Source: Polaribacter litorisediminis (GTDB taxonomy: Bacteria > Bacteroidota > Bacteroidia > Flavobacteriales > Flavobacteriaceae). From it: a DNA stretch of 64,000 bases. Where the stretch lies: the NCBI RefSeq assembly GCF_019968605.1, contig NZ_CP082966.1, forward strand, positions 1,723,001 to 1,787,000, read 5' to 3'. Below the pieces are notes generated by a model that saw nothing but the letters and a program-made list of their open reading frames with translations, was not told the DNA's origin and ran no database searches. Position 1 is the first letter of the stretch, and every line of letters starts with the position of its first letter. The translations under genes were made by a program, and so were the position numbers. This document shows positions 5,570 to 45,032 of this stretch, piece by piece.

Positions 5570-6250
5570 ATGAAAAAACTTGTTGTGTTAACTGGTGCAG
5601 GAATTTCCGCTGAGAGCGGCATCAATACTTTTAGAGGTAGCAATGGTTTGTGGGAAGGTCATGACGTTACTAAAGTTGCGAGTCCTGAGGGTTTTGCTAG
5701 AAATCCTCAATTAGTTTTAGATTTTTACAATCAACGCAGAAAACAATTGCTCGAGGTTTTACCCAATAAAGCGCATTATAATTTAGTGGATTTAGAAACC
5801 GATTTTGATGTTGAAATAATTACCCAAAATATAGATGATTTGCACGAACGAGCCGGAAGCTCTAAAGTAATCCATTTGCATGGAGAGCTTCTTAAAGTTA
5901 GAAGTTCTATTGATGAAAACCTGATTTTAGATTGGAGAAAAGATTTATTTTTAGGCGATTTATGTCATAAAAAAAGCCAATTAAGGCCTCATATTGTGTG
6001 GTTTGGTGAAATGGTGCCGATGTTAAACAAAGCAGCTGAAATTGTTCAAAAAGCGGATGTTTTGATCATTATCGGAACGTCAATGCAAGTATATCCTGCT
6101 GCGAGCTTGATACATTATACACAACCTAATATTCCGATTTATTTTATTGATCCTAAACCGGCGGTTTCTGAAAATAATTTTGAAAATTTAACCATTATTA
6201 AAAATGTGGCAAGCTCTGGAACTACTGAGCTACTTCGCTTATTGCTTTAA
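5570..6250 (+). CDS. cobB: NAD-dependent protein deacylase (sirtuin, CobB-like), zinc site degenerate
   Basis: The SIR2-family enzyme removes acyl groups from lysine using NAD+. Visible landmarks in the 226 residues are GAGISAESGI (residues 9-18), FRGSNGLW, TQNIDDLHERAG (85-96) with the catalytic His in HLHG (His104), VWFGEMVP and GTSMQVYPA. Tyr53 and Arg56 form the YxxR pair typical of class III (desuccinylase/demalonylase) sirtuins. The zinc-ribbon cysteines are almost gone: after His104 only Cys132 remains, where E. coli CobB has an RC and a CHCC motif. The fold may be held without zinc. The gene is isolated and followed by a MITE. Confidence 0.9.
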   Translation: MKKLVVLTGAGISAESGINTFRGSNGLWEGHDVTKVASPEGFARNPQLVLDFYNQRRKQLLEVLPNKAHYNLVDLETDFDVEIITQNIDDLHERAGSSKVIHLHGELLKVRSSIDENLILDWRKDLFLGDLCHKKSQLRPHIVWFGEMVPMLNKAAEIVQKADVLIIIGTSMQVYPAASLIHYTQPNIPIYFIDPKPAVSENNFENLTIIKNVASSGTTELLRLLL

Positions 6251-6318
6251 GACCTTCCGAAGAGTATTTGATTTTAAATTATGATGATTCACTATTGCAT
6301 TTATTTTATAAAAAGATC

Positions 6319-6546
6319 CATTGTTGTCCGATAAAAGATAAAAAGACCGCTTTCGCTGTTAGAATCAAGAACAAAGACTTGAATGTAACTAACTGAAAAA
6401 CAATATCATTACGATTTTAAATTTTTCGATACATCATAAATTCTAAAGCGGTTTTAATAGTAAGATGTACTACTTTAAAAACTCTTAAAAATCAAGACTA
6501 TCAATACTTAAAAAACACTTTAGTTAATTTTAATCGGACAACACTA
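6319..6546 (+). mobile_element. MITE family 1, copy 1, with 9-bp target duplication
   Basis: This 228-bp non-coding element has near-perfect terminal inverted repeats: CATTGTTGTCCGAT at the left and ATCGGACAACACTA at the right, with 12 of 14 positions complementary. It is flanked on both sides by the 9-bp direct repeat AAAAAGATC (6310-6318 and 6547-6555), a target-site duplication. Inside, ACCGCTTT and AAAGCGGT form an internal inverted pair. Two more copies occur at 24611-24837 and, inverted, at 44807-45032. It fills most of the 418-bp gap between cobB and the histidine-kinase gene. A 9-bp duplication is compatible with an IS4-superfamily parent, which is inference. Confidence 0.88.
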
Positions 6547-6668
6547 AAAAAGATCTTTTTTAAAACGCAAAATAGCATTTAGAACTATTGTAAGCAAAAG
6601 CATTCCTGTAAATTTAGATTAAGAAGGAGTTAATCCTTTAGTATTCAAAAAAATTTAAACCGTTGGTC

Positions 6669-7715
6669 TTATTTTTTTAAGGTAAATGTAAAAGTTGTTT
6701 CAATATTTAAGGTTGATTTTATAGAAATTTCACCTTCATAAGCTTCCACAATTTTTTGAACAATTGACAAACCTATTCCTGCAGATTTAAAGTCGTCTTC
6801 CAATTTTTGAAAAGCCATAAAAATTTTATCAAAATAATTTTTTTCAATTCCTTTTCCGTTATCTTTAATTGAAAATTTCCAAAAATTAGGTTCTTCATAA
6901 CATTTAATTTCTACGAAACCTTTTTCTCCTTTGTCATTAAATTTTACAGCATTTTCAATTAAATGATAAAAAAGTAACTCTAACCTATGCTTATCTCCAT
7001 AAATGGTTGGAAATTTATCTAATTTTAAAATTTTAACATCATTTGGGTTGTTAATTTTTAAGATTAGACCAGCTACTAAACTATTCAAGTCTACTTTGTA
7101 ACGCTCTTTTTCTGTTTTACCAATTGTTGAATACTGTAAAATACCACGAATTACGGTATCCATTTTCTCTACATTCTCTCTAATTAAATTGATAATATTT
7201 CTTCCGTCTCCCCCCAATTCATTTTCATAATCTGCTTTCATCCAACTAGTTAAAGCATCTATACTTTGTAGTGGTGTTTTTAAATCATGAGAAACCATGT
7301 GTGTGTAATCATTTAATTCCTGATTTTGACGCTCTAAGCTAGCGACTAATCTATCTTTTTGTTTATTAATTTCAAGAATATCTTTTGTTTTATCGTCAAT
7401 AAAACCTGCTAATGCCAAAGAATCTAAATTTTCTAAATTTTTTGCTTCATCTAAATCATAAAACTTTAACGTATTTACAACATTATTTAATTTAGAAATT
7501 ATTTCTTTTTGCGATTTCGACTCTTGTTTTAACTGTTTATTAGATTCGTAAAGTTCTTCAGAACTAATAGATGCTGCTCTTTGTAATAATATAAACTGAT
7601 CTTCTGAGTTGGTATAAGATTTATCTACAGCATTTAAAAAAAGATCTAAATCCTTATTAGCTTGTAGCTCTTTTGGCAAATATTTTCTTAATTGTCTTTT
7701 TAATAAAGAGTTCAT
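6669..7715 (-). CDS. Stand-alone histidine kinase (NahK/HnoK-like)
   Basis: This 348-residue cytoplasmic kinase has no membrane segment or PAS/HAMP domain. Residues 1-75 (LLKRQLRKYLP, LLQRAASISSEEL) resemble the N-terminal module I recall from kinases partnered with FIST/NosP sensors. A coiled coil follows at about 60-140. The HisKA H-box is SHDLKTPLQS with phospho-acceptor His143. The HATPase domain shows LIENAVKFND (N-box), IKDNGKGI (G1) and GIGLSIV (G2). Its ATG shares one base with the stop of the FIST gene (TAATG), so the two are translationally coupled. It most likely receives its signal from the FIST and/or H-NOX proteins and passes phosphate to the receivers at 9835 or 13117. Confidence 0.9.
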   Translation of the reverse strand: MNSLLKRQLRKYLPKELQANKDLDLFLNAVDKSYTNSEDQFILLQRAASISSEELYESNKQLKQESKSQKEIISKLNNVVNTLKFYDLDEAKNLENLDSLALAGFIDDKTKDILEINKQKDRLVASLERQNQELNDYTHMVSHDLKTPLQSIDALTSWMKADYENELGGDGRNIINLIRENVEKMDTVIRGILQYSTIGKTEKERYKVDLNSLVAGLILKINNPNDVKILKLDKFPTIYGDKHRLELLFYHLIENAVKFNDKGEKGFVEIKCYEEPNFWKFSIKDNGKGIEKNYFDKIFMAFQKLEDDFKSAGIGLSIVQKIVEAYEGEISIKSTLNIETTFTFTLKK

Positions 7716-8854
7716 TATTCGCTAATTAGAGTAATTGCCATTGTTTGGTTGTGCAATTGGCAGTTCATTTCACTATTAAAAGGGGCAATTTCTCCATAGG
7801 AATAGAATCCACAAACTGTAGTTTCTTTACCAATAACCTCTATTACTTCCTCTACCTCTTCCTCTACTCTTTGATCTAGAACTAATTTTCTACCAATACA
7901 ACTTACTAAAATTGCTAATTCTGGCTTATTATTTCTATGCTCTAATGCCTGCACTGCTCCAATTTCTGCCGCACTTATAATGTTATCTACATTCGTCATC
8001 ATCAGCTGCACATAAGAACCTTCTACAATATCACCTGCTAAAATCATCGAGTTTTCTTTTTCATCAATCGTTAAAATTGTTCTTACAATTGATTTATTTT
8101 TATCAGAAAATTTTACATTTAAAGGAAACAACAATGCTGCTCCTGGTAATTCTTTAGATTTATCGCCTAAATATTTTTTATATAAATCTAGAGCAGGTTT
8201 ACCGTCTAATTCATACAAAATATTGTCTTTAGATTTGGTAATTAATCGTTCTGGACCAAAAGGAATCCAACCTCCGTTGGATGCAAAAGAAACTTCTAAA
8301 TGATCTCCATATAAACCTACAGCTACAATTTCTCCTTCTTTAGGAAGTTCATTGTAAGAAGAAAAAGTTTTCTCAAATCTTTCTGAATCCCCACACAAGC
8401 CCCCAGTAATTAAAAGATTATTTTTAGTTGCAGCGTTCATTCCCAAAGCGAGTTGACTTCCATTTATAAAGCTACCTTCAGAAACTACAAAAACATATTT
8501 TAAGCCTTCTTCTGGAAATTGTTCTATTAATTGCCTACCAACAGTAAAGCTATCAATTTGATTTCCAGCATCTAAAACATTCGATTTTTTTATAGTAAAA
8601 TAACTTTTTTCAAATTCAATTGCGGTTATTGTAATAGACTCCTCATCTACAGATTCTGAGGTAATATCTCCAGCAGTTGATCCAAAAACAAGATGACCGT
8701 CTTTAAAAACTGCTCTTATTTCATCAAAAACATTTTTGTCTTGCAACATATATCTATCCCCAAAAATCAGAACTAAAGGAGCCTTTAAGTTTTGTTTTTC
8801 TGATACATATTCTATGCTATTATGTTTATTTTTCTTTAATTGAACAGTTTTCAT
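7715..8854 (-). CDS. FIST-domain sensor, NosP-like
   Basis: The 379-residue product has FIST_N (about residues 25-215) followed by FIST_C (about 225-355), with no membrane segment. FIST_N-like features include VFGSTAGDI and TGGLCGDSERFEKTFS. FIST_C-like features include LVSCIGRKLVLDQRVEEE and the terminal TVCGFYSYGEIAPF. FIST proteins encoded beside a cytoplasmic histidine kinase have been characterised in Pseudomonas and Vibrio as NosP, haem proteins that sense nitric oxide and control the kinase. The overlap with the kinase gene and the nearby H-NOX gene make a NosP role the best inference; haem binding cannot be read from the sequence. A generic FIST ligand sensor, for example for amino acids, is the alternative. 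Confidence 0.85.
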   Translation of the reverse strand: MKTVQLKKNKHNSIEYVSEKQNLKAPLVLIFGDRYMLQDKNVFDEIRAVFKDGHLVFGSTAGDITSESVDEESITITAIEFEKSYFTIKKSNVLDAGNQIDSFTVGRQLIEQFPEEGLKYVFVVSEGSFINGSQLALGMNAATKNNLLITGGLCGDSERFEKTFSSYNELPKEGEIVAVGLYGDHLEVSFASNGGWIPFGPERLITKSKDNILYELDGKPALDLYKKYLGDKSKELPGAALLFPLNVKFSDKNKSIVRTILTIDEKENSMILAGDIVEGSYVQLMMTNVDNIISAAEIGAVQALEHRNNKPELAILVSCIGRKLVLDQRVEEEVEEVIEVIGKETTVCGFYSYGEIAPFNSEMNCQLHNQTMAITLISE

Positions 8855-9293
8855 TGTTTATTTCTTGAGGGTAGTAGACGGTTCCATGTAAATATTTAGA
8901 TTTTTCACATAAAAAAATCTCTATAATTGTAAATTTACAAATTTTTAACTAAAAGCTCATTAAAACGTAACAAATTTTAAATTGCCTTTTTTCTTAAATA
9001 ATTGTACCCTTTTGCTAACTAAATTATTAAAATAATTGACTAACTTTAGTCTCATCACCATTTAAAAGCAGGAGCTTTTTTAAAGTAGTTCCGAAAAAAT
9101 TTTCAGGAATAAATAGGTTTGTTTTGAAACGTGATACAAATAAATTTACTTCTAACTAAATGAAACCGAGATTCAGATTACTAAAACCTCTTCTAATTTT
9201 AAATTTTAGTGTTTTCTAGAAAAATTGTTTTAAATTATTTTTACCAGTTTTTTGTTAAATCGAATTGTGGTAAAACAATATTTTCTTAACTCA
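8855..9293. other. 439-bp intergenic region between nosP-like and H-NOX genes
   Basis: I see no coding potential here. The region is AT-rich and contains the palindrome at 8927-8940. No exact TAnnTTTG box for the FIST gene could be placed, and no terminator with a T-tract was found after the H-NOX gene. Confidence 0.5.
8927..8940. promoter_or_regulatory. Perfect 14-bp palindrome upstream of the nosP-like gene
   Basis: TTGTAAATTTACAA is self-complementary and lies 73-86 bases before the FIST ATG. Its TTG-n8-CAA ends resemble CRP/FNR-superfamily sites. A role as an operator for the putative NO-sensing genes is possible, but AT-rich palindromes also arise by chance. Confidence 0.4.
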
Positions 9294-9833
9294 CTAATTT
9301 TTATTAATGACGAATCTAACTTCAGTGCCATCTTCATTTATTTTATGAAGAGCTATCGTTGCTGTGGCATTAAAATGCTCAAATGTTTTATTCATTAAAC
9401 CCAATCCAAAATGATGCATGGCTCTGCTAGATTTGTATAGCATTGTTAAAGATTTTTCATCTTTTTTTTCTACAATAAAAGTAGGCAATTCGGCATCTGG
9501 ATATATTTTTCTAACCTCTATATGAATATGATTTTCAATAGATGAAAGCATTTCTATAGGATCTTTATAAGTTGCTAGTAAACCTGGATAACTTGTTTCT
9601 ATGATTGAAAAAAAATGCTCACCATAAACCAACAATAAATTATCGATAGAAACACTGGTATGTTTACTTAAACTTTGAAGTAATTGTAACATTTCAGAGA
9701 AACTGTAAGTACCCACAGATGTATAAATACCGCCAGAATCTAATTGAGATTCTGTAATAATTTTATCTACCGTTTCTAAACCAAATTTATCTTCAACTAA
9801 ATCTAAAAATTCGGTAAATACAATTCCTTTCAT
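9294..9833 (-). CDS. H-NOX haem nitric-oxide/oxygen-binding protein
   Basis: This is a single-domain H-NOX (HNOB) protein of 179 residues, normal for bacterial stand-alone sensors. The proximal haem ligand is His104 (NHIH). The conserved Pro lies 13 residues later (Pro117 in AELPTF), and the haem-propionate motif YxSxR is intact as Tyr133-Ser135-Arg137 (LYKSSR). Bacterial H-NOX proteins bind NO on haem and regulate a partner histidine kinase or cyclic-di-GMP enzyme. The receiver gene ends one base upstream, so the two form an operon, and the FIST/kinase pair follows on the same strand after 439 bp. With all signature residues present, haem binding is very likely. Confidence 0.93.
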   Translation of the reverse strand: MKGIVFTEFLDLVEDKFGLETVDKIITESQLDSGGIYTSVGTYSFSEMLQLLQSLSKHTSVSIDNLLLVYGEHFFSIIETSYPGLLATYKDPIEMLSSIENHIHIEVRKIYPDAELPTFIVEKKDEKSLTMLYKSSRAMHHFGLGLMNKTFEHFNATATIALHKINEDGTEVRFVINKN

Positions 9834-9834
9834 A

Positions 9835-10248
9835 TTATAATTTTCTTAATTCATTTGAACTCCAATATGCTAAAACAGTTTCAATTTTTTTTACATAATC
9901 TTCGTACTTTAAAGGCTTTAAAACATAACCAGACATCCCTGTTTTATAACATTCTAATAAATCTTTTTGATTGTTAGATGTTGTTAAAATTATGGTAGGA
10001 ATATGTTTTAAATCATCATTAGCCTTCAAAATTTTAAGAAACTCTATTCCATTTATTTTAGGCATATTTAAATCAAGAAGAATAATATCTGGAATATTAG
10101 CTTTATCCTCTAAAAATTGCAAAGCTTCTTCACCGTTTTTGGCTTCATGTATGGTATGTTTTAGCTTTAATAATGAAATGGTTCTTTTCATTTTCATTAT
10201 CTCTATTAAATTGTCTTCAACCAATAAAACCTTCAAAATTTTCTCCAT
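9835..10248 (-). CDS. Single-domain response regulator (Rcp1/CheY type)
   Basis: The product is a receiver domain of 137 residues without an output domain. The acidic pair is in VLLVEDN, the phospho-acceptor is Asp59 in LLDLNMP, the switch Thr is in IILTTS and the conserved Lys111 is in VLKP. The style resembles Rcp1-like regulators that serve stand-alone sensor kinases. It is the first gene of an operon with H-NOX (one-base gap). It is a likely phosphorylation target of the nearby kinase; since it has no DNA-binding or enzymatic domain it should act by protein contact or as a phosphate sink. Confidence 0.9.
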   Translation of the reverse strand: MEKILKVLLVEDNLIEIMKMKRTISLLKLKHTIHEAKNGEEALQFLEDKANIPDIILLDLNMPKINGIEFLKILKANDDLKHIPTIILTTSNNQKDLLECYKTGMSGYVLKPLKYEDYVKKIETVLAYWSSNELRKL

Positions 10249-10336
10249 TATTACTGTAAAGAATTAAATAAATAAAAATACAAAGCAAAGTAAGTTTAAA
10301 ATAACTTAATTTTTATTAGAACCTGTTTAAAAGATA

Positions 10337-10382
10337 AAATGGTTCGTTAATATACCAAAAAGTATCGATGAACCGTTTTTTC
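10337..10382 (-). terminator. Possible terminator of the DUF6495-like gene
   Basis: GGTTC (10341-10345) and GAACC (10370-10374) form the base of a long-looped stem flanked by A- and T-rich tracts. It lies just past the stop of the 10405-10872 gene and before the receiver gene. The loop is long, so the call is weak. Confidence 0.35.
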
Positions 10383-10404
10383 TATTTCTATAAGTTAAAA
10401 AACA

Positions 10405-10872
10405 TTACCCAACCAATTGACTAAAATAGTCAAAAATTTCACCTTTTGAGATGCCGCCTCCCTTTTCAATTAAATCAAAAACTTCTTGATTTCTTTCTAA
10501 ATGATAAGGTTTTGAACCTTTAAAAATATCTACTGAATTATCCATAGGATTTTTCATCAACCACTCAAATCCTTTTTGATCTAGTAAATTGATATCCCAA
10601 TTTACTTTAATCGCAATTCTATGAATTTCTTCTGCATCACACTTAAACAAATTAACCGTTGTTTCAGAAAAATGTTCTACATAGTTCGTTTTAGACATTA
10701 CATCCTCCCAAACAACATCAGAAAATAGGTTCATCTCTTCTTCTGCCACATTGGGCTGTTCTTTTTTTATCTGATTCCATTCGGTTACATCTATTTTTTG
10801 ACTTGCTAAAAACAGTGCAAATTCTTTGTGTAAATTCTCAAATTGTTCTTTGGTAAGTTGCCTATATTTCAT
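10405..10872 (-). CDS. DUF6495-like conserved protein
   Basis: This is a soluble, acidic 155-residue protein with no signal peptide or membrane segment. It opens with MKYRQLTKEQFENLHKEF and ends with GISKGEIFDYFSQLVG. I recall a Bacteroidota-restricted family of the same length and pattern listed as DUF6495; the name is from memory. Its function is unknown. It is monocistronic, with its own -7 box four bases before the ATG. Confidence 0.6.
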   Translation of the reverse strand: MKYRQLTKEQFENLHKEFALFLASQKIDVTEWNQIKKEQPNVAEEEMNLFSDVVWEDVMSKTNYVEHFSETTVNLFKCDAEEIHRIAIKVNWDINLLDQKGFEWLMKNPMDNSVDIFKGSKPYHLERNQEVFDLIEKGGGISKGEIFDYFSQLVG

Positions 10873-10876
10873 GGTT

Positions 10877-10884
10877 CAAAAATA
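10877..10884 (-). promoter_or_regulatory. -7 promoter box of the DUF6495-like gene
   Basis: The minus strand reads TATTTTTG, an exact consensus, with only four bases between it and the ATG at 10872. A leaderless or nearly leaderless transcript is expected. Confidence 0.55.
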
Positions 10885-10977
10885 CAATTTCAATATTAAT
10901 TTTAAACCATCATCCTTAAAAAAACATGGATATCAATGTGCTCATAATTCTTACAGTTTTACAAGTGATAATTACAC

Positions 10978-12014
10978 CTATTTAAACCGAACACCATAAG
11001 AAACGCCAAAAGATCCGAATACAAAATATTCTCCTTTTGCAAAGGGTTTTTCTTCTCTAAAACCCCCCGTTGTAAATCCCCAAATATTCTTTTTACTTTT
11101 TGATGTTAAAAAATACCCGAAATTAATACTTTGAGAATCTAATCTAAAAATTTCTGAGTCTTTAATTTCTATGCCATCAGAATTAGGAACGAAGCGGTCT
11201 ACTGCTGGTGATGCTCCATAACCAATTTCTACATTTAAATAGTTTTGGGCATCACTTCTATACTTTCTATAAATAACCTACCAGAGGCACTCGTACCAGG
11301 AAAACCTGGAGTTACATAAGATCTTAACGCCCAATAACTATTGCCTGTATACCAACCTAAAGAACCTGTGTAAATAGTAGTTTCTGTAGAAAATTTTAAC
11401 CATCTAAAGCCTAACGAAGCTTCAAAACTTTTTGGTAAAGATTTAAACAATTCTGCTCCATATCTAGCACTAGGGTTTAACGGACTTTGAGACCAACCTC
11501 CACTAACGTATGCATACAAACCTTTTACGATTCTAGGATATAAATCTATTTCTAATTGATAATTATCGGTTAAAAATCTATTTGTATAATTTATTTTTGC
11601 ATTGATACTTCCGTATTTAGTTTGCCTAGCATATTGCACAGTTGTATAGTGCATATGATCTCGATCTTTATTCTGATACACTTCTAAAGAATAATCTATA
11701 CTTAAGGTATTGAAACTTAAATCGCTCTCTAAAGAATTTTTATAATTTAAAACTTCTTCATTATCAGGATGCAATTTTACAGCCTGTTTCATTGTAATTA
11801 AGGCTTCTTGACTATTATTAGAATTTAGTTCTGCTTTTGCTTTTAGTTGCAAAAGATCGGCATCACCAGGGAAAACTAGTAATGCTTTTTGCACTAATTC
11901 TAACGATTTAAAATATTTTTCTGCGTACTGTTCATTTTTAACATAGGCGATCCAATCTGTTTTTCGTTCCTTGTCTTTATTTAAAACAATTCTTAAGATT
12001 TCATCAAACCCCAT
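10978..12014 (-). pseudogene. YaiO-family outer-membrane beta-barrel gene, frameshifted
   Basis: The first frame (11235-12014) encodes a TPR-like N-terminal region (about residues 25-95) and a YaiO-type beta-barrel up to VTPGFPGTSASGRLF, then leaves the family and stops. The rest of the barrel continues in another frame from about 11273 to a stop at 10978, reading YRKYRSDAQNY and ending FGVSYGVRFK. Adding one T to the three-T run at 11271-11273 restores GRLFYRKYRSDAQNY and a protein of about 345 residues. A one-base deletion, or a sequencing error, is therefore likely. The start overlaps the HEAT gene and shows no signal peptide, which is abnormal for an outer-membrane barrel and suggests the 5' end is also damaged. 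Confidence 0.8.
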
Positions 12015-13111
12015 AACTATAATCTATAAAATGAATTATTTTATTGTGAGCTTCATCTTCTGATTTTTTTTCTAATTTGTCATATAAATTGACATCTATT
12101 TTTTTCAAAATACAGAGCGCCTTGTATCTAATCTCAAAGTGATCATTGTCTATATGACTCACAGCAAATAAAGTATCTTTTTTTGTTGCTGTTTTTTCTA
12201 ATAAATTAAAAAAAGCTAATTTTTCTTTTATCGTTAAATCGCTATATCTATTTTTCAGTATTTCTTTAGCTTCAACAATCTCAAAATATGTTAATGTTTC
12301 GATTGTTTTCAACTTTATCTCCAGGTTCGCATGGTTTAATAGTGATAACATAATTTCTTTCGTGTCTAAAAGATTAAAATGTTTAACAAGAGTTAACACA
12401 AATAGTACAACATATTCATTTTCAGATTTTAACCATTTTGAAATGTCCTTTATTTTACGATCTTCAATTTTTTTTATTTCACCTAATAATTGTATTTGAT
12501 CCCATTCTGATAAAGGCAATTTTAAATCATCTAAAAAATTTAATCCTTCCAATTCAAATAGTTCTAAGAAATAAAGGTGCGCCTCTCGCCTAACTTCTTC
12601 TCTTTTATGGTTGATAAATTTTTTTATTAAAGGTGCTACTTTCGTAACTTTAAATTGCCTTAAATCTCGAATACCTTCAACTACCAAGTACCAAGTACCA
12701 TTTTTTACTTTTTAACTTTTTAACAGCATACTCTAATAAACCTAGCTTGTAGACTAATTTTTGCATTGTAACCACCATTTCTCCCGAAACTTCTTGCCTT
12801 AAATCAAAAAAAGTGGCAGTCATTATTTTTCTTTTTCTTTTACTTGGTAGCCCTTTTTTAAACTTCTTTAAGATCTTTTTTTGCTCACTGCTAAATTTTA
12901 CACCTTCTTCATCTGCGTATAAAAATTCAATAAGCAACTTTTCTACGAATTCTGTATGTTTCAAGTTCTTTTTCACGATTTTCCGTGTATGATTTCGTAC
13001 TACTTTTAGAAAGATAACTAAAAACACGATGATAATAATTAATAGTACAACTAGCGTCCAGATTAACTTCTCTACTATGGGAAACATCATAAAACCAAAA
13101 ATAATGAACAA
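12004..13111 (-). pseudogene. Membrane-anchored HEAT-repeat protein gene, broken by a 7-bp tandem duplication
   Basis: The first part (12677-13111) encodes one N-terminal transmembrane helix (about residues 10-37) and a basic region ending KKLKSKKWYLV, then LGS and a stop. The second part (12004-12687) carries HEAT-like helical repeats beginning VVEGIRDLRQFKV. At the junction the 7-base unit AAGTACC occurs twice in tandem on the plus strand (12686-12699). Removing one copy joins the frames seamlessly as KKWYLVVEGIRDLRQ, giving a single protein of about 365 residues. In intact flavobacterial operons, as I recall, such a protein sits with a receiver, a GT2 glycosyltransferase and a YaiO barrel. 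No GT2 gene is present here. Confidence 0.8.
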
Positions 13112-13116
13112 TTAAT

Positions 13117-13509
13117 TTACAGCAGCATTCTTTTTACTCTAATTAAAAGTTCACTTAAACTTAAGGGTTTACACATAAAATCGTTGGCTCCTAAATTAAA
13201 TGCCCTTAAGACCATATCTTCTTGTCCGGATGAAGAAAAAACCAATATTGGTGTTTTACTATTTAACTGATTTCTTACATGACTAACCACTTCTAAACCC
13301 GTCATATAATCCATCATAATATCCGTTAAAATAAGGTCAGGATTTTCATTTTCAATAAATTCTATAGCCTCTTTTCCGTTTTTAGCCATCAGCATTTTAA
13401 AACCCTCTTTTTCTAAACGTGATTTTAAAAGGAGAGATAAAACAGAATTATCTTCTGCAAGCACAATTTTATTTTTATTTTTCACACCAAATAGTTTTCT
13501 AAAAAACAA
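13117..13509 (-). CDS. Single-domain response regulator
   Basis: The product is a receiver of 130 residues with a short basic N-terminal tail (FFRKLFGVKNKNK). It has VLAEDN, phospho-acceptor Asp63 in LTDIMMD, the Ser/Thr switch in VFSSSG and Lys114 in CKPL. There is no output domain. It heads the operon with the broken HEAT and YaiO genes and lies back to back with the Hpt gene at 13621. It may be the receiver partner of that Hpt protein or of the kinase at 6669. Its own reading frame is intact. Confidence 0.88.
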   Translation of the reverse strand: MFFRKLFGVKNKNKIVLAEDNSVLSLLLKSRLEKEGFKMLMAKNGKEAIEFIENENPDLILTDIMMDYMTGLEVVSHVRNQLNSKTPILVFSSSGQEDMVLRAFNLGANDFMCKPLSLSELLIRVKRMLL

Positions 13510-13520
13510 ATTATTTTAAA

Positions 13521-13528
13521 CAAACTTA
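13521..13528 (-). promoter_or_regulatory. -7 promoter box of the receiver/HEAT operon
   Basis: The minus strand reads TAAGTTTG, an exact TAnnTTTG match, 11 bases before the ATG at 13509. Confidence 0.5.
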
Positions 13529-13565
13529 ATAAAATATAAGTAAAAGCTTAGTAATAGTTTTTATT

Positions 13566-13573
13566 TATATTTG
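13566..13573 (+). promoter_or_regulatory. -7 promoter box of the Hpt gene
   Basis: TATATTTG matches TAnnTTTG and lies 47 bases before the ATG at 13621, divergent from the box at 13521-13528. Confidence 0.5.
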
Positions 13574-13620
13574 TATTTTATTTAAAAACAGAATTAGCCT
13601 CGCAAAACAAGCAAAGTAAT

Positions 13621-13995
13621 ATGGAAATTGAATCAATTTTAAAAAGTGATGTTGTAGACTTAACCTCTATAAAAAGTTTTTTTGCTTCGGATAAAGATAT
13701 GCTCATTCAATTAATTAATGTGTATTTATCGGATACAATTCCAAGATTAGAAACTTTAGAAAAAAGCCTTACTGATTTAGATTATGAAGCAGTTAGAGGT
13801 ATTTGTCATTTTTTAAAATCGTCATTAGGTTTAATGGGAGTTAGCTGTTTAGAAGAAGTGGCTATCCTTGAAAAACTAGCACAGAATAATGAAGATGAAG
13901 CAATTATTAAGCAAAAACTGAGTGCTATTATTCCTGTTATAAAAGAAAGTATTACCGAATACAAAATGATTTTAAACAAACTTGATGCTTTATAA
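13621..13995 (+). CDS. Histidine phosphotransfer (Hpt) domain protein
   Basis: This 124-residue all-helical protein carries the Hpt signature ICHFLKSSLGLMG, with His63 as the phospho-transfer residue. There is no kinase or receiver domain, so it is a free-standing relay protein, as in Ypd1- or HptB-type phosphorelays. It is divergent from the receiver gene at 13117-13509, and 16 bases later the COG2509 gene starts on the same strand. It may shuttle phosphate between a hybrid kinase elsewhere and one of the two local receivers. Confidence 0.88.
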   Translation: MEIESILKSDVVDLTSIKSFFASDKDMLIQLINVYLSDTIPRLETLEKSLTDLDYEAVRGICHFLKSSLGLMGVSCLEEVAILEKLAQNNEDEAIIKQKLSAIIPVIKESITEYKMILNKLDAL

Positions 13996-14011
13996 GCTAT
14001 CAATTTTATAG

Positions 14012-24610: not shown

Positions 24611-24837
24611 CATTGTTGTCCGATAAAAGATAAAAAGACCGCTTTCGCTGTTAGAGTAAAGAACAAAGACTTGAATGTATCTAACTGAAAAACAATATTA
24701 TTAAGATTTTAAATTTTTCGATACATCATAAATTCTAAAGCGGTTTTAAAAGCAAGGTATACTACTTTAAAGGCTCTTCAAAATCAATACTATCAATACT
24801 TTAAAACATTTTAGCTAATTTTAATCGGACAACACTA
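24611..24837 (+). mobile_element. MITE family 1, copy 2
   Basis: This 227-bp copy is about nine-tenths identical by eye to the one at 6319-6546. It has ends CATTGTTGTCCGAT and ATCGGACAACACTA and the internal ACCGCTTT/AAAGCGGT pair. Its flanks (ATAACAGAT and ATAATACCA) do not form an exact 9-bp duplication, so this copy is older or was rearranged. It sits between the two family 2 copies. Confidence 0.85.
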
Positions 24838-24840
24838 ATA

Positions 24841-44791: not shown

Positions 44792-44806
44792 TTATATTTT
44801 TAAAAT

Positions 44807-45032
44807 TAGTGTGTCCGATTAAAATTAACTAAAGTGGTTTAAAGTATTGATAGTATTGATTTTCAAGAGCTTTTAAAGTAGGACACCTTGCTTTTAAAAC
44901 TGCTTTAGAATTTATGATGTATCGAAAAATTTAAAATCATAATAATATTGTTTTTCAGTTAGTTACAGCCAAGTCTTTGTTCTTGATTCTAACAGCGAAA
45001 GCGGTCTTTTTATCTTTTATCGGACAACAATG
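44807..45032 (-). mobile_element. MITE family 1, copy 3 (inverted), with 9-bp target duplication
   Basis: This 226-bp copy is in the opposite orientation to the other two. Its plus-strand ends are TAGTGTGTCCGAT (one T lost compared with the other copies) and ATCGGACAACAATG. The direct repeat TTTTAAAAT at 44798-44806 and 45033-45041 is a 9-bp target duplication. The internal hairpin sequences are conserved. Confidence 0.88.

Follow-up and report, generated by a model that had tools for sequence, protein, structure and literature searches.

The stretch of DNA considered here (the window) comprises 64,000 nucleotides of the genome of Polaribacter litorisediminis (NZ_CP082966.1, positions 1,723,001 to 1,787,000), which was assembled as one contig of 4.34 Mb. 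It contains a compact locus, locus A, in which sensor-type proteins of two families, H-NOX and FIST, are encoded beside a receiver and a histidine kinase. All four genes lie on the minus strand, and in the list of open reading frames (ORFs) their order is REC, H-NOX, FIST and kinase 2. REC is a stand-alone receiver of 137 aa (9835..10248; Pfam Response_reg, 85 bits, above cut-off), H-NOX a haem sensor of 179 aa (9294..9833; HNOB, 138.4 bits with a cut-off of 25.5), FIST a FIST/FIST_C protein of 379 aa (7715..8854; Pfam FIST 135 bits and FIST_C 122, above cut-offs) and kinase 2 the FIST-partner histidine kinase (FHK) of 348 aa (6669..7715; HisKA 38 and HATPase_c 75 bits, above cut-offs). REC and H-NOX are 1 bp apart, and a gap of 439 bp (8855..9293) separates H-NOX from FIST. 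The original prediction described a FIST gene overlapping a kinase gene by one base, with H-NOX and a receiver beside them on one strand; base 7715 is indeed common to FIST and kinase 2, and the minus-strand ORFs and Pfam families agree with the rest. Locus A contains no Hpt protein, no LytTR regulator and no intact copy of the kinase that follows H-NOX in relatives (kinase 1), and a whole-genome search found a single H-NOX gene and a single FIST gene.

In relatives the intact operon reads REC, H-NOX, kinase 1, FIST, kinase 2, Hpt and LytTR. 'Genus' and 'family' are used here for groups of the search tool, the genus group including records named Polaribacter and Tenacibaculum. A survey of the family group fetched 80 H-NOX regions and counted 79, with L061 left out for lack of an H-NOX call, L082 ending at a contig edge and the weak family match G076:C2 outside the survey. 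The gene after H-NOX encodes a histidine kinase in 78 of these 79 loci, and in the other the contig ends. REC lies upstream of H-NOX in 75 of them, and the next five genes include FIST in 40, Hpt in 68 and LytTR in 67. The genus group follows the same pattern, with REC upstream of all 37 H-NOX genes and a kinase after H-NOX in 35 of 37. When named genomes were scanned with the window FIST, 80 loci came to light, most of them in Polaribacter, Tenacibaculum, Kordia, Winogradskyella, Algibacter and their kin (L352 and L355 share a contig and resemble each other), and 72 of them have H-NOX, kinase 1, FIST, kinase 2, Hpt and LytTR all in place. Only Hpt is missing from L276; L277 and L278 have REC but neither H-NOX nor kinase 1 before FIST, the other genes being present; L311, L322 and L350 have FIST and kinase 2 with no Hpt or LytTR behind them, and in L311 and L322 a separate operon of REC followed by H-NOX starts about 2 kb further on. 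Two further loci, L305 and L334, are cut by the contig start too near FIST for H-NOX to be judged.

The last two genes of the operon encode a protein of about 105 aa, which scores 23.5 bits against Pfam Hpt where the cut-off is 24.6 and whose family keeps the phospho-His in 112 of 113 aligned sequences, and a protein of about 237 aa made up of REC plus LytTR. The elements of a phosphorelay, a stand-alone REC, an Hpt and an output regulator, are encoded together in these relatives, and the intact operon may be pictured as a two-input His-Asp-His-Asp phosphorelay in which H-NOX would govern kinase 1 and FIST kinase 2, and the two kinases would phosphorylate the stand-alone REC, from which phosphate would pass to Hpt and on to the DNA-binding LytTR regulator. 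Since each pair occurs without the other, H-NOX with kinase 1 and FIST with kinase 2 are modules that can come apart: 39 of the 79 family loci have H-NOX and its kinase with no FIST in the next five genes (some of them cut by contig ends), and FIST and kinase 2 stand without H-NOX in L277, L278 and L350. Each sensor normally comes with its own kinase, so the earlier idea that one kinase serves both finds no support. Integration of the two sensors, as it had also been proposed, holds in the sense that two sensor-type proteins belong to one conserved locus, and it is plausible by way of a shared relay, though not of a shared kinase.

The proximity of H-NOX to a FIST–kinase pair, for which a neighbourhood survey had been suggested, is conserved. 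H-NOX was found in 78 and FIST in 63 of 199 family genomes, both in 51 and the two within 10 kb of each other in 41; the co-occurrence has a Fisher p of about 1.6e-16, a value that ignores shared ancestry. That the arrangement is a one-genome oddity is ruled out by the conserved operon in relatives. A search across the phylum, covering 395 genomes, found H-NOX in 27, FIST in 89 and both in 18 (coordinates of these read by hand); 11 of the 18 have the two on one contig within about 3.5 kb, and all but one of these 11 are family-group genomes. As 71 of the 89 phylum genomes with FIST are without H-NOX, FIST does not generally go with H-NOX, and the two are linked chiefly within this family.

The 439-bp gap of locus A occupies the place of kinase 1. 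In tblastn searches with the kinase core of relatives, many queries match the gap at one place, within about 9012-9155 on the minus strand. The 40 kinase queries score 28.5 bits at best and 20.8 on average, compared with highest values of 25.8 and 14.5 among dinucleotide-shuffled sequences, so that none of 300 shuffles reaches either the best or the mean score of the gap. Polaribacter sp. IC066, the nearest of the named loci by FIST (80% identical), has a kinase of 640 aa at this place, 35 bp after H-NOX and without overlap, and the DNA of its gene is 75% identical to the gap over 104 bp. Kinase 1 is missing from the window because it has decayed, and locus A is a reduced, worn-down copy of a widespread Flavobacteriaceae operon.

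The genome nevertheless retains a kinase of this type. Searched with a kinase 1 protein, it gives its best match at 1,362,926-1,364,635 (60% identity in the core and 56% in the N-terminal part), which rules out that no H-NOX-type kinase remains. The match, a kinase of 573 aa, belongs to locus B, about 364 kb from locus A, where the order is REC, kinase, Hpt and LytTR, without H-NOX, and where the genes adjoin those of a cbb3 oxidase (ccoN/O, ccoG, fixH and a DsbD-like protein). The locus B Hpt scores 20.0 bits (Pfam cut-off 24.6) and is 50% identical to the Hpt of L100. With REC and a kinase in the window and a kinase, Hpt and LytTR at locus B, the genome encodes all four kinds of phosphorelay part. 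Over its length the locus B kinase is 61–68% identical to kinases from 12 of the fetched genomes in which the kinase gene shares one base with the H-NOX gene before it, and in five of these 12 the genes upstream have the lengths of ccoG, fixH and the DsbD-like gene, a match of length only. The comparison covered the L277 genome and the genus group, in which 97 genomes were searched and 57 had H-NOX; 40 regions of 37 genomes were fetched, and G207, one of these genomes, has no H-NOX. A locus B without H-NOX occurs in P. litorisediminis, IC066, G214, G282 and G207. Locus B kinases and H-NOX-adjacent kinases form one clade (SH-aLRT 86) in which the H-NOX-less ones are scattered, and this scatter suggests repeated loss of H-NOX; the trees are quick ones with weak support in places.

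Seven genomes with two loci were encountered, outside any systematic survey: P. litorisediminis, G214, G282, G248, G202, IC066 and the metagenome-assembled genome of L277. When both loci of a genome are pooled, a reading by hand finds at least one each of REC, H-NOX, H-NOX-type kinase, FIST, kinase 2, Hpt and LytTR in all seven. H-NOX is confined to one locus in six of the seven (G248 has it in both) and Hpt likewise in six (G282 has it in both). Our reading of P. litorisediminis, to which we give a probability of roughly 60%, is that of a reduced two-sensor relay: the locus A H-NOX would regulate the locus B kinase in trans, FIST would regulate the adjacent kinase 2, and both inputs would use the intact locus A REC and then the Hpt and LytTR of locus B. 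The trans step is proposed because H-NOX and FIST are each encoded once, kinase 1 has decayed, and the locus B kinase is orthologous to H-NOX-adjacent kinases. A wider claim, that two paralogous operons suffered reciprocal loss of parts and now form one distributed two-input phosphorelay, the output of which may tie to the cbb3-oxidase genes, is put forward more tentatively and falls a little short of even odds.

The receivers of the two loci differ in a manner that bears on this reading. The locus A REC has its acidic pair, phospho-Asp59, Thr/Ser and Lys111 all intact, and among 117 aligned RECs Asp59 and Lys111 are found in 117 and Asp12 in 115. By the ratio of nonsynonymous to synonymous substitution rates (dN/dS), here always taken from the single pair with IC066 and rough in view of a high dS, it is under the strongest constraint of the genes compared (0.042), and the locus B REC is under the weakest (0.335). 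At the second position of the acidic pair 115 of the 117 have Asp, and the two that do not are locus B receivers, from G248 and G202; RECs below 130 bits were kept out of the alignment, and two of these, the locus B receivers of P. litorisediminis and IC066, by eye have Asn and Gln at this position. Asp is retained at locus B in G282 and in the L277 genome, and G214 has no locus B REC, so this residue is lost in four of the six locus B RECs of two-locus genomes. Loss in the locus B REC together with constraint on that of locus A fits the use of the locus A REC by both kinases, and the locus A REC is probably the first phosphoryl acceptor of the relay.

The H-NOX protein itself bears no sign of decay; its frame is open and its dN/dS is 0.124. 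It belongs to its family both by the HNOB profile and by the proximal His and the Tyr-x-Ser-x-Arg motif. The haem residues that the original prediction had called intact are all present, and in an alignment of 113 H-NOX proteins His104, Pro117, Tyr133 and Ser135 are found in 113 and Arg137 in 110. Its ligand is presumably nitric oxide (NO), as in the family. In the tree it clusters with its counterparts at locus A of G214 and IC066 (SH-aLRT 93). It does not form an H-NOX/HnoK pair in the usual sense, since only a kinase remnant follows it directly and the kinase of partner type is at another locus. That H-NOX has become an orphan, acting on some other kinase or buffering NO apart from the FIST pair, is improbable. 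The genome does offer other kinases, including one of 429 aa at about 509 kb with a core 44% identical to kinase 1, and roles for H-NOX other than the sensing of gaseous NO are discussed in a review (PMC8738867); set against this, REC still lies 1 bp before H-NOX, as it precedes H-NOX throughout the genus group, and both genes are constrained.

The solved structures nearest to the window H-NOX are 6bde (321 bits) and 6bdd (319 bits), of Kordia algicida H-NOX; 6BDD serves as the source of Ka (K. algicida) H-NOX in a published paper. At hinge position 71 (about 9621-9623) Ala is most frequent among the 113 aligned proteins (76), ahead of Gly (32) and Ser (5). Here 6bdd has Ala whereas the window protein has Gly, as does 6bde.

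The FIST protein had been labelled NosP-like, a label that fits the layout but is unproven. FIST and FIST_C domains lie beside a kinase with no recognised sensor domain, the arrangement of NosP systems, but the protein scores only 66.7 bits with the NCBIfam NosP model (NF041558), for which the curated cut-off is 450; the FIST proteins of the L346 and L085 operons had no match to this model at E 1e-10. Cys319, Cys365 and His368 are invariant in 97 of 97 aligned close relatives and are candidate haem ligands, although invariance is no proof of such a role. A sequence comparison of the window FIST with solved structures matched none up to E 1. The gene has a dN/dS of 0.096. In L085 (10254-12505) and L240 (9668-11916) the slot of the FIST–kinase pair is filled by a highly divergent FIST, with about 20% identity to that of the window, and by another kinase, as though one second input had been exchanged for another.

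Kinase 2 matched no sensor domain in the Pfam scan; its N-terminal region, with the motif MNSLLKRQ, is conserved, the residues being invariant in 29 aligned sequences, and its H-box is present. A kinase without an evident sensor of its own invites the suggestion that H-NOX, after the loss of kinase 1, was re-partnered with the FIST kinase, which would then integrate both sensors. H-NOX and this kinase are close together on one strand, H-NOX is still under purifying selection, and in G214 and G248, too, H-NOX stands directly before FIST with no kinase between. We consider this unlikely, though somewhat less so than an orphan H-NOX. Kinase 2 follows FIST in 80 of 80 named loci, even where the operon has no H-NOX, and all three genomes encountered with H-NOX directly before FIST (P. 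litorisediminis, G214 and G248) retain the H-NOX-type kinase at locus B. Far less probable than either is that locus A is simply decaying and signals no more. The kinase remnant, the loss of Hpt and LytTR, a repeat resembling a miniature inverted-repeat transposable element (MITE) at the edge of the locus, the several forms that part loss takes in related genomes and the dN/dS of kinase 2 (0.205, making it the least constrained of the four genes) could be read in that way; yet REC, H-NOX, FIST and the FIST kinase all have open frames with dN/dS of 0.04-0.21, and the key residues of REC and H-NOX are present together with the kinase H-box.

Several points weigh against the relay with H-NOX acting in trans. 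G207 holds a locus B kinase and LytTR with no H-NOX match at all, so a kinase of this type can be kept without H-NOX, perhaps by way of its PAS/GAF domains. The Hpt proteins fall just below the Pfam cut-off (20.0-23.5 bits, cut-off 24.6), and the gene calls come from a simple ORF finder. Kinases 1 and 2 have the H-box in common, yet over the 70 residues around the phospho-His they average only 47% identity (82 loci), a value that does not decide either way on a common target. There are 43 kinase-matching stretches in the genome, several of them within one protein, and other kinases could be the partners. An orphan Hpt and LytTR pair, moreover, could be the real output. This pair lies at about 4.19 Mb (L145 6980-8367) and is preceded by a degenerate REC stretch that matches in two frames; it is unlikely to be the pair lost from locus A, as its LytTR groups with distant loci, although its branch is long.

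Immediately beyond the 3' end of kinase 2 and outside the relay, the MITE-like dispersed repeat (6319..6548, strand not assigned; found by a repeat search of the genome) sits where relatives carry Hpt and LytTR. The element is about 225 bp long, non-coding, 27% G+C and bounded by terminal inverted repeats (GTTGTCCGAT...ATCGGACAAC). Window copies lie at 6319-6548, 24611-24838 and 44806-45032, and at least 40 places in the genome, the first of these included, carry it at 90-100% identity (40 of 142 first-look candidates were scored). No match to it was found at E 1e-8 in the loci of relatives examined. Upstream, also outside the relay, locus A is marked by a DUF6495 gene (10405..10872, minus strand; Pfam 206.7 bits), and a gene of 155-156 aa, alike to it in length only, lies just before REC in L206, L208, L212, L218, L238, L242 and others. 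Sigma-70-like promoter sites are in no excess at the locus (15, with a shuffle mean of 22.2), a Bacteroidota-type promoter has no full match in it, and an Rfam scan of window positions 6000-14000 gave two matches, both far below the gathering score.

The conserved operon of marine Flavobacteriaceae is a natural two-input system in which both kinases seemingly converge on one REC, one Hpt and one LytTR regulator. The reciprocal losses here and in relatives lead to a testable prediction, namely that H-NOX acts in trans on a kinase encoded about 364 kb away. As to known systems, a Shewanella study is said to have linked NosP to the H-NOX network, and LuxU, the partner of the Vibrio cholerae kinase VpsS, is an Hpt protein.

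In the parts of the literature available, H-NOX and FIST/NosP are known from Proteobacteria, where they feed c-di-GMP enzymes or quorum sensing (PMC8738867, PMC6769237, PMC12570481, PMC8846402). That FIST genes lie near H-NOX is already in print, the review PMC8738867 placing them in the neighbourhood of H-NOX group 1, and the legend of its Figure 6 lists families that lie no more than five genes away in 20% or more of genomes. The accessible text of that review describes neither an operon structure nor a second kinase, an Hpt or a LytTR, and in it the word stem 'bacteroid' is absent and 'flavobacteri' occurs in a reference title only. A literature search of limited depth found no account of a two-kinase relay operon or of its splitting, and among the sources it examined this review alone mentioned neighbourhoods of FIST and H-NOX. 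H-NOX 2 of Legionella pneumophila likewise lies beside a kinase (lpg2458) and a CheY-like stand-alone receiver (lpg2457); the passage in question (PMC8738867) mentions no FIST pair, Hpt or LytTR. The FIST module recalls NosP-NahK/NosK of Pseudomonas, Legionella and Burkholderia and NosP-VpsS-LuxU of V. cholerae, where a solo FIST is encoded with a kinase; in neither NosK nor VpsS is a sensor domain recognised, and LuxU receives phosphate from VpsS (PMC6769237, PMC12570481). It differs from them in that the window FIST falls below the NosP cut-off and no c-di-GMP enzyme is among the operon genes identified. The H-NOX module, finally, is akin to H-NOX/HnoK/HnoB of Shewanella oneidensis and V. 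cholerae, in which a solo H-NOX protein has a separate histidine kinase as its target (PMC8846402); the output there is an EAL phosphodiesterase, whereas the operon of relatives has a stand-alone REC, an Hpt and a LytTR regulator together with a FIST–kinase pair.

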